Source of the DNA: Flavobacteriales bacterium
Lineage (GTDB): Bacteria; Bacteroidota; Bacteroidia; NS11-12g; UBA955
Reading direction: 5' to 3'
Assembly: GCA_947463095.1 (NCBI GenBank)
Contig: CANHRE010000017.1
Coordinates: 1-39,365, forward strand
DNA length: 39,365 nucleotides
The number at the start of each line of letters is the position of its first letter. Position 1 is the first letter of the stretch. The notes beneath the pieces were generated by a model. That model was not told where the DNA came from. It worked only from the letters and a program-made list of their open reading frames with translations, and searched no databases. Below, piece by piece: positions 29,749 to 33,843 of this stretch. A program made the position numbers and the translations under genes.

Positions 29749-29757
29749 GTTTCGATT
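29749..29757. repeat. Left target-site duplication (9 bp)
   Basis: GTTTCGATT here is repeated exactly at 30421-30429, directly abutting both ends of the 663-bp element between them. A 9-bp direct repeat next to inverted termini is the signature of transposition. Confidence 0.75.
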
Positions 29758-30420
29758 CACTGCTGTCCAAAACTTTTTTTATTGAACAGGTAGTGCGCAT
29801 ATTATCAAGGGGTTAGCAGTCTATTTTTAACTATTTTTATTTTCACCTCCCCCCCACACCTAATCAAACATATTCTATTTTCTTACTTTTTCCTTGATGA
29901 AAAAGTAAGCAAAAAATCAAGGCTGCAAATGATGAAAGGCGCACACTTGCAATCAGCCGAATGCCTGCCCCCACGGCTCGTTGCTAACGCAACTCGGTGG
30001 GGGCAAGCGGATAAAGGAAATTTCTGGTAACACGTCATTTGAGGCCGATCCTTTTGCGGCTTAGCTGGGTTGTGGTTGGTGGAATGGGTAATGAACGGTT
30101 ACGGAAGACCTCCACTTGTTGTGAGACAGCTTGCCAAATTTGGCTACAAGCAATGTATATTAGCCCCGGAAGGGCAGCTTGCCCCCCTGTCGCTCATTAC
30201 ATTCGCTTACGGGGCAGGCGTAAGCGGAGTGATGCGGGGATATATTCATAGCAATAACAGGAAACAAACATTCAAAGCCCCCCCTGTCGCTTCGCTCAGG
30301 GGGCAAGCAGGGGCTTAATATTAAGTTGTTTAAGAGTTTCTACCATTTTGTAATTGTTCTGCAATTCAAAGGCAGGTCTATATACCCAACATTAGCTAAA
30401 AATTGTTTTGGACAGATGTG
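29758..30420. mobile_element. MITE-like non-autonomous element, left copy
   Basis: The segment starts CACTGCTGTCCAAAAC and ends with the reverse complement of CACATCTGTCCAAAAC, giving 16-bp terminal inverted repeats with two mismatches, flanked by a perfect 9-bp target duplication (GTTTCGATT). It contains no transposase. Open frames inside, such as 30070-30318, have no family resemblance and overlap palindromes. Inside are a conserved structured core (29882-30057) and G/C palindromes such as CCCCCTG/CAGGGGG near 30287-30303. A second, inverted, diverged copy starts at 33291. Together with TSD flanks this accounts for the gene-free stretch from 29736 to 30471; nothing else was seen there. Confidence 0.7.
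29882..30057 (+). repeat. Conserved, potentially structured core of the dispersed element (left copy)
   Basis: Successive pairings are visible: CTTACTTTTTC (29882-29892) with GAAAAAGTAAG (29899-29909); its loop with flanking base, CCTTGAT (29892-29898), with ATCAAGG (29916-29922), which would make a pseudoknot; GGCTG (29921-29925) with CAGCC (29954-29958); GCCCCCAC (29967-29974) with GTGGGGGC (29997-30004); and AAAGGA (30013-30018) with TCCTTT (30049-30054). The last 69 bases (29989-30057) are identical to the inverted copy at 33572-33640. Some alternative pairings exclude one another. Transcription is not shown. Confidence 0.6.
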
Positions 30421-30429
30421 GTTTCGATT
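30421..30429. repeat. Right target-site duplication (9 bp)
   Basis: GTTTCGATT, identical to 29749-29757, immediately follows the right terminus of the MITE-like element and marks its insertion point. The duplication limits this insertion to 29758-30420. Confidence 0.75.
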
Positions 30430-30471: not shown

Positions 30472-30810
30472 TTAAAAGTCGTTAATTAAAATAAAATTCA
30501 TCAGGTTTTCCAGTTCATCAAGATCTAAAGACGCATTATAAATTCTCTCTAATTTAATTCTGTGATAGTCATGAATAATGAAATTACGGAATGTTCGAGG
30601 AATATGCCATGGGTATTCGTATTTTTCTAAAATGTCCATGTCAATATGTCTGATGGCTTCACCGATAATAAGGAACTGAAACTTCACAGCGCTTTGGGTC
30701 TGCACGTCTTGATAAAACGCTTCTTCGCTAATCCCGGAAGTGAATGCTTTAATGAAACGAATGGCCTCTAGGATATGGCCTACTCTCTCCTTTGGTGTTG
30801 GTTTAACCAT
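30472..30810 (-). CDS. hepT: HEPN-domain toxin HepT (DUF86)
   Basis: The 112-residue all-alpha HEPN protein carries the RX4HXY motif RNFIIHDY (Arg75, His80, Tyr82), the RNase active site of HepT toxins. In characterised type VII systems the Tyr is AMPylated by the partner MntA to silence the toxin. It overlaps the HTH-nucleotidyltransferase gene by 8 bp, antitoxin first, as expected for mntA-hepT operons. The region is visibly more AT-rich than the housekeeping genes, which suggests horizontal acquisition. HepT would act in the cytoplasm on RNA (tRNA in studied cases). Confidence 0.9.
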   Translation of the reverse strand: MVKPTPKERVGHILEAIRFIKAFTSGISEEAFYQDVQTQSAVKFQFLIIGEAIRHIDMDILEKYEYPWHIPRTFRNFIIHDYHRIKLERIYNASLDLDELENLMNFILINDF

Positions 30811-31405
30811 AAATTCTAATCAAATCGTTTTGTGCAGTTTTCCAGGCGAAATCATGGAGATTGCCTTTTTCTACAAGATCTACTTTCCTATTTATTTCTT
30901 TTTCTATCAGATAGGTGATGTCTGCCAAATCAAATATTGAATATTTCTTCTTGTTATTGAATGATATCATGATGTCAACATCGCTATCAGATGTTGGTTC
31001 ACCTCGTGCAAAGGAGCCAAAAATCCAAGCATCGGAGACGCGCCCATCTATTGTTAAGATAGTTTGAATACGGTTGACTATGTCTGAAACCAGAAGTTTC
31101 CCACCCACATTGTAAGTGACAGATTCCTCCGCCACCTGCAAGGCCTTTAAAGCCAGGGCTTCGTGGCCGATTTCGTAAAGCACTTTATCACTGAGGAACA
31201 ATACCAGCAATTCTTCGGGTTCCTGTTGATATAATCCAGCCAGTTTCTTTACAATTTCCCGGGTTAATCGCCGCTCACCCCGTTCCATCTTGCTCAGGAT
31301 GGCTACGTCAACATCCAACAGGGCGGCCACTTTCCGCAAAGGCAGCTTGCGCTCTTGCCTTAAGCGGCGAAGCCTTGCTCCAAGACCTTCTGTTGACAGC
31401 ATCAT
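30803..31405 (-). CDS. mntA: HTH-fused MntA-type nucleotidyltransferase antitoxin
   Basis: The 200-residue protein joins an XRE-type HTH (about residues 9-60, LRRLRQERKLPLRKVAALLD) to a minimal nucleotidyltransferase domain with the canonical GSX10DXD motif (GSFARGEPTSDSDVD; Gly130-Ser131, Asp142, Asp144). MntA proteins AMPylate the HepT Tyr. The fused HTH would let the antitoxin repress its own promoter, and a 19-bp palindrome sits one base upstream of the ATG. Two starts are possible (ATG at 31405 or 31402); the TTG at 31414 falls inside the palindrome and is unlikely. It overlaps hepT by 8 bp. Confidence 0.9.
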   Translation of the reverse strand: MMLSTEGLGARLRRLRQERKLPLRKVAALLDVDVAILSKMERGERRLTREIVKKLAGLYQQEPEELLVLFLSDKVLYEIGHEALALKALQVAEESVTYNVGGKLLVSDIVNRIQTILTIDGRVSDAWIFGSFARGEPTSDSDVDIMISFNNKKKYSIFDLADITYLIEKEINRKVDLVEKGNLHDFAWKTAQNDLIRIYG

Positions 31406-31406
31406 A

Positions 31407-31425
31407 TTTGACAAATAATGTCAAA
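31407..31425. promoter_or_regulatory. Candidate operator of the mntA-hepT operon
   Basis: TTTGACA (31407-31413), five bases AATAA, then TGTCAAA (31419-31425) form a perfect palindrome with 7-bp arms. It begins one base upstream of the mntA ATG and overlaps the -7 box. A dimeric HTH antitoxin is the natural ligand; this is inference. A further TTGACA half-site lies inside the gene at 31393-31398. Confidence 0.65.
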
Positions 31426-31452: not shown

Positions 31453-31540
31453 GTGTCAAGGCTCTGCTGACACTTACCTGATGGGATACTTGCAGGTAAG
31501 CTACTATTTCTCTGCGGGCAGCAGGCCTTACCACTTTTTT
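31433..31540 (-). pseudogene. Truncated IS3 orfB (transposase) N-terminus
   Basis: In the -1 frame relative to orfA the sequence reads VVRPAARREIVAYLQVSH and then QVSVSRALTLAMLLE before a TAA. This resembles the start of IS3 orfB proteins (ARRE..AYL, then a SxxRA segment). The link is the slippery heptamer A-AAA-AAG at 31534-31540 (minus), the classical IS3 programmed -1 frameshift site. The DDE catalytic domain is absent, so the IS cannot transpose on its own. Confidence 0.75.
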
Positions 31541-31794
31541 GACAGCACGTCCTTGAGCATCTTGTTGTCAAGGGCCAGTTCGGCATACATGTGTTTCAGC
31601 TTACGATTCTCCTCTTCCAGTTCCTTAAGTCGCCGCAGGTGTTCACCGTCCATACCGGAGTACTTCTTTTTCCAATTGTACAAAGTCTGCGGGTTGATGC
31701 CCAGTTCCCGGCTGATGTCCGACACTGAACGCCCGTTTTCCGCTTCCTTAATGGCCTTGAAAATCTGGCTTTCTGTGAATTTGGTCTTCTTCAT
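31528..31794 (-). CDS. IS3-family transposase OrfA
   Basis: The 88-residue protein is a typical OrfA: an HTH beginning MKKTKFTESQIFKAIKEAENG with DISRELGINPQTLYNWKKKY, followed by a leucine-zipper coiled coil (LKELEEENRKLKHMYAELAL). It binds IS ends and normally forms the fused transposase with OrfB by frameshifting at AAAAAAG, present just before its stop. Here OrfB is truncated, so OrfA is orphaned. It might still bind IS ends, but that is speculative. Confidence 0.92.
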   Translation of the reverse strand: MKKTKFTESQIFKAIKEAENGRSVSDISRELGINPQTLYNWKKKYSGMDGEHLRRLKELEEENRKLKHMYAELALDNKMLKDVLSKKW

Positions 31795-31891: not shown

Positions 31892-33154
31892 TTACAATGG
31901 CCGCACATCCATGGCCGGACCAGACATTCCCGGCTGACCATCGCGACCCGAAGGACCGCGCGAACCCCTGCGACCCGTAACCAACAAATCTATCAGGCGT
32001 TTTGAGTTTGGGTCGCTGCCACCCGGGCCGCCGCCACCACCGTCACCACCCCGTCCACCTGCCCCTCCTGCATTGTTAAGCTTAATGAGGTGCAGGTGTG
32101 GCATGGCCGCGCTATCTGCGTAAACAGTTAATCTACCTCCGTTTCCACCAAAACCGCCATCACCGCCCCGCCCGCCATCACCGCCCAATCCCGGATCTCT
32201 GCCGCTGCAGTAGTTTGTGGCCGCTGTGCCGTCGCCGCCGCCCCCGCCTTTTCCGCCTTTGCCACCGGCACCACCGGTACCTCCCTGAAGGTTTACAACA
32301 ATACCGGCCCCTATAGAAAAATCAATAATATGGGTTTGGGTTGGTCCGGCGCCATTTACAATAACATGAAAGAGGTTTCCCTGTTCCTGCCTTATTTCCA
32401 ACTGCACATCGCCTCCGCGACCGCCGTTTTTGCCCGGTGAGCCCTGACTGCCCGATGTGCCGTCTGTTCCATCTTGGCCCCAATTGCCTGAATTCCCCAG
32501 ATAACCATCTGCGCCTTCGCCGCCCGGCGCATTCACCACCACTGTTTGGTTAAAAACTACGGGCAGGTTAAAAATGTACCTTTCTCCGTTGCAGCGGTTT
32601 GCAAGCATCACAGGATAGGTGGGTGCTTTGTAATCTGAGGGTATGCACATGGTGGATTTGGACAACCCCACATGCTCTGTTGACATGGAAAAATATTCTC
32701 TTAGCAGCGATCCGGCCTGGGCGTAGCGAGTTTCACCATTTATATCCACCGATGGGTAAGTGTTTAAACGCTGTCCCGGAGTAACCGCATTCGGGTAGGG
32801 CAGTGCCTCTATGCTTAGCTTGGTCGGTGAAAGCAGTAATGAAACCTTTTCTCCGGTTTTTAGCAGTTCCACTGTTAGTTTTAAAGGTTTACACATGGGT
32901 ATTTCGGGCTTCAACAGCCCAATTTCCATGGTTTTGGCATTGTCGCACTGAATATTGAATTTCCGATTCGGAAAAACGATGGCCTCACCCAGCACACGGG
33001 TTTTTCTGCCATGTTCAGGTTCATACACAATACTGTATTTCAACAGCCCATCGTCCCAGGGAATGCTGTCGGTCCACCTCAGTGTAAAACCCTGTGCCCT
33101 CAACCCGCCATATAAATCACCCAAAAACAAAAGCACCGCAAGGTGTTTTCTCAT
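31892..33154 (-). CDS. Secreted glycine-rich, collagen-like repeat protein
   Basis: I do not recognise a named family. The 420-residue product starts with a signal peptide (MRKHLAVLLFLGDLYGGLRAQ). About 190 residues of ordinary beta-rich sequence with a few cysteines follow. The glycine-rich C-terminal half has 12 collagen-type triplets (GAD GYL GNS GNW GQD and so on), a beta spacer, then three blocks of GG-X repeats (GGTGGAGGKGGKGGGGGDG, GGDGGRGGDGGFGGNGG, GGAGGRGGDGGGGGPGG). A final collagen-like stretch reads GRRGSRGPSGRDGQPGMSG. GG-X blocks can form polyglycine-II helix bundles. The ATG at 33154 was preferred over 33196 because it starts the signal peptide. The gene lies within the inverted-repeat-bounded accessory island. 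Confidence 0.75.
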   Translation of the reverse strand: MRKHLAVLLFLGDLYGGLRAQGFTLRWTDSIPWDDGLLKYSIVYEPEHGRKTRVLGEAIVFPNRKFNIQCDNAKTMEIGLLKPEIPMCKPLKLTVELLKTGEKVSLLLSPTKLSIEALPYPNAVTPGQRLNTYPSVDINGETRYAQAGSLLREYFSMSTEHVGLSKSTMCIPSDYKAPTYPVMLANRCNGERYIFNLPVVFNQTVVVNAPGGEGADGYLGNSGNWGQDGTDGTSGSQGSPGKNGGRGGDVQLEIRQEQGNLFHVIVNGAGPTQTHIIDFSIGAGIVVNLQGGTGGAGGKGGKGGGGGDGTAATNYCSGRDPGLGGDGGRGGDGGFGGNGGRLTVYADSAAMPHLHLIKLNNAGGAGGRGGDGGGGGPGGSDPNSKRLIDLLVTGRRGSRGPSGRDGQPGMSGPAMDVRPL

Positions 33155-33424
33155 ACGGTTTATTACAGAAAAGGGATGGTATGCCCCCAAATGCATCGAC
33201 CACCGATAAGAAAAATAGCCGCAATGCCAATCAACGTTCTCAATAAATTATCGCGACACTTTTCTATGAAATTCATTTAAAATCGCATACCACATCTGTC
33301 CAAAATAAATTTTTGCCAATATTGGTAAAGATTCCTGCCTTTAAATCGTGGAACCATTCCAAAATAGTGGCAACTCTTCAAGAACTTAATATGCCCCCGC
33401 CGCTCGCTGCACGTTATAGTGAGA

Positions 33425-33571: not shown

Positions 33572-33801
33572 GCAAAAGGATCGGCCTCAAATGACGTGTT
33601 ACCAGAAATTTCCTTTATCCGCTTGCCCCCACCGAGTTGCAAAGTAACTGCTTGCCCCCACTGGATTGCGCAGCAAGACACCGTGGGGGTGGGGGAGCAC
33701 GCGAGGAGATCGCGGCAGGCATTCGGCCGATTGCAAGTGTGCGCCTTTCATCATTTGCAGCCTTGATTTTTTGCATCCTTTTTCATCAAGGAAAAAGTAA
33801 G
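33572..33801 (-). repeat. Conserved structured core of the dispersed element (right copy)
   Basis: Positions 33572-33640 are identical over 69 bases to the inverted left core. A block of about 61 bases around 33712-33772 differs by one base. That change turns CAGCC into CGGCC, which still pairs with GGCTG through a G-U wobble. CCTTGAT and ATCAAGG are both kept, while the outer stem (CTTACTTTTTC with GAAAAAGGATG) is partly broken. The middle has an extra CCCCCAC/GTGGGGG-type hairpin not in the left copy. Confidence 0.6.
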
Positions 33802-33843
33802 AGAAAAGAATAGAATATGATTGATTCGGTGTGGGGGTAAAAA

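Follow-up and report, generated by a model that had tools for sequence, protein, structure and literature searches.

MITEs, which are non-autonomous DNA transposons, are usually thought to require their ends alone. HEARO/omega RNAs are mobile, dispersed and structured, with a length near 200 nt, and H-type pseudoknots with triple-helix contacts are present in telomerase RNA and in viral frameshift pseudoknots. The BrickBuilt MITE of Porphyromonas gingivalis is present in multiple copies, contains a minisatellite and is predicted to form long stem-loops (PMC4596501). REPs measure 20-65 nt, possess a GTAG-type foot and are accompanied by a linked Y1 gene (PMC3733652, PMC6006769), and atypical secondary structures have been reported on the flanks of the Bacteroidetes RAYT genes of subclass 2.6 (PMC6006769). 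The element described here, found in a window of 39,365 nt (the whole stretch of DNA that was analysed) from a Flavobacteriales genome, is a non-autonomous transposon carrying a new, phylum-wide structured core. A previous sequence-only reading of the window had recognized a dispersed, gene-less element with a structured core, which is borne out, but had missed its MITE nature, manifest in terminal inverted repeats (TIRs) and target-site duplications (TSDs).

The transposon, its ends and its surroundings

The complete MITE at copy 1 occupies positions 29,758-30,420 (+ strand, 663 bp, delimited by TIRs and TSDs) and contains no gene, its longest ORF being 82 aa with a TTG start; the core located earlier is real, but the element that holds it is larger than had been stated. 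The left TIR CACTGCTGTCCAAAA (29,758-29,772, +) agrees at 13/15 positions with the reverse complement of the 15-bp right TIR TTTTGGACAGATGTG (30,406-30,420, +), which reads CACATCTGTCCAAAA when inverted. The same 9-mer, GTTTCGATT, abuts both terminal repeats, and the left (29,749-29,757) and right (30,421-30,429) TSDs are a perfect 9-bp match. The TIRs of copy 1 recur in other copies in the source genome (G000), of which a second one (L023) has a 9/9 target duplication of CTTTGAAAT, and three further copies have flanks that match at 7-8 of 9 target-duplication positions. Copy 2 is inverted and has lost its 5' end (33,291 to ~33,840, - strand, with an approximate outer limit); its right TIR (33,291-33,305, -) reads as an exact CACATCTGTCCAAAA on the + strand, and no left TIR was found in its vicinity. 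Alignment verified the inverted repeats reported previously, a 69-base identical block (29,989-30,057 versus 33,572-33,640, 69/69) and a block of ~61 bases with one change, the latter forming part of a longer match (29,871-29,969 versus 33,714-33,812, 94/99). The single change is correct within 29,909-29,969 (A to G at 29,955), but further changes at 29,906 and 29,908 had been overlooked. In total, G000 contains 44 cores (E <= 1e-3), and the element interiors are a mosaic of modules that varies from copy to copy, with AAATGATG... in some, a GTAAGTG minisatellite in others, and GCCCCCAC hairpins present or absent. At L019, L023 and L030 in this genome, a GTAAGTG-type minisatellite inside the element replaces the AAATGATG module.

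It is nearly certain that the whole repeat is a MITE, since it displays TIRs, TSDs of fixed length, many copies devoid of a transposase gene, and empty sites. Two further genomes document its mobility. In G017, the core is found inside elements of ~480 bp with ends ACTGASTATCC, the young copies of which have 8-bp target duplications, and two sites occupied by the element in G017 are clean, uninterrupted targets in the congener G432 (~95% identity over the query region). In G423, which belongs to the same order as G000, the element is ~357 bp long with ends AATGCTTCTCCG, and 8-bp duplications at 7/8 or better accompany 12/22 copies. Both G423 and G017 have experienced recent bursts of the element. 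The TIRs, the 8-9-bp target duplications and the empty sites argue that a DDE-type transposase inserted the MITE in trans, and because the TIRs of G000, G017 and G423 differ, a core of this kind is associated with three or more sets of ends. Among the TIR matches in G423 and G017, no transposase was found within elements bearing the ends of either genome, and the candidates for an autonomous parent retrieved by this search were deletion derivatives or unrelated insertions; nor was a recurrent transposase ORF found adjoining the core. G017 also holds core-less derivatives with both ends, from which the core may be dispensable for movement, or may have been deleted after insertion. These derivatives seem to fuse the core hairpin with a second hairpin present near the right end of the G017 MITE (L360, L371-L374), GTCCTTTTGT-TGCCGG-ACAAAAGGAC, whose stem differs between copies. 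In a G423 MITE region (L299, 530-1213, -), a 227-aa ORF without a Pfam family is situated between the core and a right-end-like repeat.

These signs of a DDE enzyme, TIRs and 8-9-bp TSDs, bear directly on the alternative that a RAYT (TnpA-REP, an HUH Y1 transposase) moves a REP-like element by acting on the core as substrate hairpin. Such an assignment would suit the DNA-like character of the hairpin, and recalls the atypical secondary structures reported to flank subclass 2.6 (PMC6006769), but of 30 Y1 transposase genes located in genomes rich in the element none has a core within 1.5 kb, the sole Y1 gene of G000 carries the motifs DHVH and YIEHQ of subclass 1.2 and is not accompanied by a core, and G368 and G238 possess cores without a Y1 gene, making this origin most improbable. 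The only Y1 transposase gene in G000 is adjoined by a ~50 bp tandem repeat (L031 1-270, G000:C54). The loop CTTGAT, described below, recalls CTTG^A sites; a rolling-circle nick site in the loop was considered and rejected, as the literature search gave no specific support and the TSDs speak against it.

The elements are intergenic and have no preference for the strand of the neighbouring gene, and this lack of orientation bias rules against a cis-regulatory leader or terminator. Across 202 loci, no linked gene or effector was recurrent, save for common families and phage genes, and no linked nuclease gene was seen. The element is carried by 24 viral contigs, in two of which, upon inspection, it sits between phage genes, and a search of plasmid and phage records gave short partial matches only. 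Clusters of elements in the same orientation, some of them repeating in tandem every 330-385 bp, are present at L062, L063, L065 and L067, of which L065 and L067 resemble surface-polysaccharide loci. Facing core pairs a few hundred bases apart form large inverted repeats at L334 (G430) and at L036 and L070 (G347). Within the window, the interval between the two MITE copies contains a HepT-like ribonuclease gene adjoining an HTH and nucleotidyltransferase gene (30,472-31,411, -), a HEPN/MNT-type toxin-antitoxin pair, followed by an IS3-type OrfA (HTH_Tnp_1) without OrfB, a transposon remnant (31,528-31,791, -), and a 433-aa ORF that lacks a Pfam match and looks rich in glycine and proline on inspection (31,892-33,193, -).

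The folded core and its conservation

The core of copy 1 includes the hairpin P1 (29,882-29,909, +), in which the stem CTTACTTTTTC/GAAAAAGTAAG encloses the 6-nt loop CTTGAT; the first hairpin of the sequence-only reading is located here, as CTTACTTTTTC-CTTGAT-GAAAAAGTAAG. P1 is followed by the A-rich linker CAAAAA (29,910-29,915, +), a candidate third strand, and by ATCAAG (29,916-29,921, +), which pairs with the P1 loop to give a pseudoknot (the ATCAAGG downstream of P1 corresponds to 29,916-29,922). In its general form, a P1 loop CTTGAN pairs with a downstream NTCAAG. The corresponding parts of copy 2 are P1 at 33,774-33,801 (-) and the linker, ATCAAG and 5' strand of the closing stem P2 at approximately 33,754-33,774 (-). 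Copy 1 folds better than its dinucleotide shuffles do (z -4.2), and copy 2 does so only weakly (z -1.6). Within G000 alone, P1 shows no covariation and is broken in copy 2, where the changes at 29,906 and 29,908 (copy 1 numbering) leave two uncompensated mismatches.

Across genomes, support for the pseudoknot is far above what chance would give. In 60 diverse sequences the P1 stem covaries; for the fold in these sequences, 99.1% of 960 cells are paired and the covariation score is 0.360, where shuffles give 0.071 +/- 0.009 and slid partners 0.026-0.070. In a pattern set thinned to 128 distinct sequences, which is unbiased for the columns counted, the two loop-adjacent P1 pairs are paired in 128/128 and 127/128 sequences, with up to four pair types, and the last loop base and first NTCAAG base form T-A in 79, A-T in 24 and C-G in 22, with 3 mismatches. 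The pseudoknot between the first hairpin loop and ATCAAG, proposed from the window, is supported by the covariation of this pair (T-A/A-T/C-G) across the phylum; it is the one testable pair, the remaining five being fixed by the pattern or invariant and therefore uninformative. The linker is coupled to the stem as well: its sequence CAAAAR mirrors the stem strand RAAAAG, with stem A accompanied by linker A in 49 sequences and stem G by linker G in 10 (59/59, Fisher 1.6e-11, kinship ignored). This identity coupling has one exception in 67 in a larger, less strictly thinned set, and linker length tracks P1 stem length in 136/137. Two kinds of triplet would fit the coupling, purine-motif triplets if the + strand folds and pyrimidine-purine-pyrimidine triplets if the complementary strand does. 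A reverse-strand H-type geometry was considered, which accounts for the pyrimidine-purine-pyrimidine coupling but leaves zero nucleotides for one connecting loop.

Selection has very likely maintained the folding of the core, including the pseudoknot and the contact made by a third strand. Copies lacking compensatory change had been named beforehand as the observation that would count against a structured element; compensatory changes are present across the phylum, in the stem, in the linker and in the only pseudoknot pair open to testing, so that recent duplication alone is insufficient to explain the core. The same data weigh on the possibility of an ordinary, functionless MITE whose internal palindromes persist through replication slippage or gene conversion. 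Template switching can perfect palindromes in repeats without selection, which would fit the scarcity of G-U pairs described below, as well as the recent bursts in G423 and G017. However, template switching can account neither for a linker that mirrors the stem nor for CTTGA and TCAAG staying the same through the phylum, and the core persists while the TIRs vary, so that this account appears very improbable.

The long closing stem, P2, has the final G of NTCAAG as its first base and finishes in (A)GGCC. In copy 1 its 5' strand GGCTGCAAATGA (29,921-29,932, +) pairs with the 3' strand TCATTTGAGGCC (30,035-30,046, +), enclosing a variable mosaic cargo (29,933-30,034, +) that differs among the G000 copies and here includes a GCCCCCAC/GTGGGGGC hairpin; both window copies possess the GGCTGCAAATGA/TCATTTGAGGCC stem, the 3' strand TCATTTGAGGCC of copy 2 lying at approximately 33,582-33,593 (-). 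P2 covaries in other genomes, with four pair types at most positions, and at a strict score is detected in 48% of 121 distinct elements, compared to 0.6% of shuffles, while in G000 it is missing in about half of the copies. The local hairpins proposed earlier for this region give way to P2: GGCTG, which had been paired with CAGCC, pairs instead with AGGCC ~110 nt downstream, the GCCCCCAC/GTGGGGGC hairpin is variable cargo absent from many copies, and AAAGGA/TCCTTT is unsupported, such that the extra hairpins are either variable cargo or competitors of P2. The A-U to G-U change noted previously belongs to these unsupported local hairpins and is irrelevant to the conserved fold, because P2 or cargo takes their place.

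The earlier suggestion of some similarity to intergenic repeats common in Bacteroidota proved sound. A covariance model of the 53-nt core has matches in 83/395 Bacteroidota species genomes, and one built from the 60 diverse cores in 105/395 species genomes and 50/171 genera. Among the matches listed from a degenerate DNA scan of genome contigs, Bacteroidota predominate, and a small number come from elsewhere, among them Fusobacteriota (Propionigenium maris), Ignavibacteriales and Balneolaceae; some of these non-Bacteroidota records are MAGs that could be mis-binned, while P. maris is an isolate. The cores in this Fusobacteriota isolate (L184, L191) suggest transfer between phyla. Across the Bacteroidota the folding of the core is conserved, and the surrounding transposon ends vary between genomes.

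DNA fold or RNA fold

Structured RNAs normally tolerate G-U pairs far more than A-C mismatches. In P2, G-U combinations number 83 versus 108 for A-C, and among isolated mismatches the counts are 8 for G-U, 13 for A-C and 28 for others. In P1, one-sided changes occupy 0/600 cells in the 60 sequences, despite many two-sided changes, and G-U pairs are nearly absent. Of the features expected of an RNA family, the compensatory helix changes are thus present, and the tolerance of G-U above A-C is not. With G-U no more frequent than A-C, use of the fold as DNA is favoured, and with moderate confidence we infer that it acts as DNA in the propagation of the element.

The main rival is a transcript-based role, in which the MITEs carry a structured ncRNA, transcribed from the + strand and forming an H-type pseudoknot between P1 and NTCAAG with an A-rich third loop, which would act in trans, or guide or protect something. 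The loop-strand pairing comprises six bp with zero nucleotides in the first connecting loop, and together with the A-rich third segment would also suit an H-type RNA pseudoknot of A-form. The canonical H-type order, with the A-rich linker on the + strand, speaks for an RNA, as do the fold z-score of -4.2 and the conserved, RNA-motif-like U.G and G.A pairs at P2 positions 4-5. Against it are set the P2 and P1 pair statistics given above, the unbiased orientation relative to genes, the lack of an Rfam match, and the absence, in the sequences inspected, of a consistent terminator-like T run 3' of P2. On balance, an RNA role is considered unlikely, though less so than the RAYT and functionless alternatives.

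The reading we favour, which seems somewhat more probable than all others together, is of a MITE whose phylum-wide selected core fold serves as a DNA signal in cis. A non-autonomous element would be inserted by a DDE-type transposase supplied in trans, and would carry a central module of ~160-220 nt, consisting of P1, the CTTGAN loop with its NTCAAG partner, the A-rich linker, and P2 around a variable rod, with the linker predicted to serve as a third strand, aligned in register with the P1 stem. Stem, pseudoknot, linker and P2 all show compensatory change, which indicates that the fold of this module is under selection across the Bacteroidota, in the midst of transposon ends that differ between genomes. 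The module most likely adopts its fold when the DNA of the element is single-stranded or extruded and, as a best guess, the folded form would be a cis recognition site for a protein aiding propagation; neither this protein nor the mobilising transposase was found. Several observations run against this explanation, including the ability of TIRs and target duplications to explain mobility without internal structure, the core-less G017 derivatives, the RNA-like H-type geometry, the U.G and G.A pairs in P2, and the losses of P1 and P2 in G000. More tentatively, the core is a candidate independent, phylum-wide functional unit, a pseudoknot with an in-register third strand, which unrelated MITEs may have picked up and which a conserved protein would recognise in its folded form, as DNA (or RNA); if so, mobile signals made of folded nucleic acid would form a class of their own, and a new one.

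Relation to described elements and structures

The conserved fold points to an undescribed folded nucleic-acid device. The window and 17 other loci gave no Rfam match at gathering thresholds, and the core strings had no match in the literature, in a search mostly without subscription papers, for which an earlier description is possible. The element is carried by more than a quarter of the sampled Bacteroidota species, in some of them in dozens of copies, and no paper describing it was found.

Several known systems resemble it in part. BrickBuilt is likewise a multi-copy Bacteroidota MITE with stem-loops, but its ends are of the CCGAAAGGTCTC type, its host range is reported as limited, and the pseudoknot core is absent from the parts of its description consulted (PMC4596501). 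The IS982-derived MITE of Cardinium cOegib is another Bacteroidota MITE, moved by its parental IS, but is strain-specific, has a known parent IS, and in the portion of the account consulted is described without a conserved folded core (PMC9769881); another Cardinium genome (L163) carries a core. REP/BIME elements with their RAYTs are also intergenic, dispersed, hairpin-forming repeats (PMC3733652, PMC6006769), whereas the present element is 357-663 bp long, has TIRs and TSDs, and is without a linked Y1 gene. HEARO/omega RNA differs in that the core here lacks an Rfam match and is without a linked nuclease gene in the loci seen. The telomerase and frameshift pseudoknots provide the closest structural likeness, with a loop that pairs downstream and a connecting strand that touches the stem in register, but the present core has no sequence relation to them, resides in a transposon, couples its linker by base identity, and has DNA-like pair statistics. 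Relative to other MITEs, the ends here change between genomes while the internal fold is kept, down to base-triple coupling, and the element makes possible a direct test of whether bacterial transposons use internal folded DNA or RNA.
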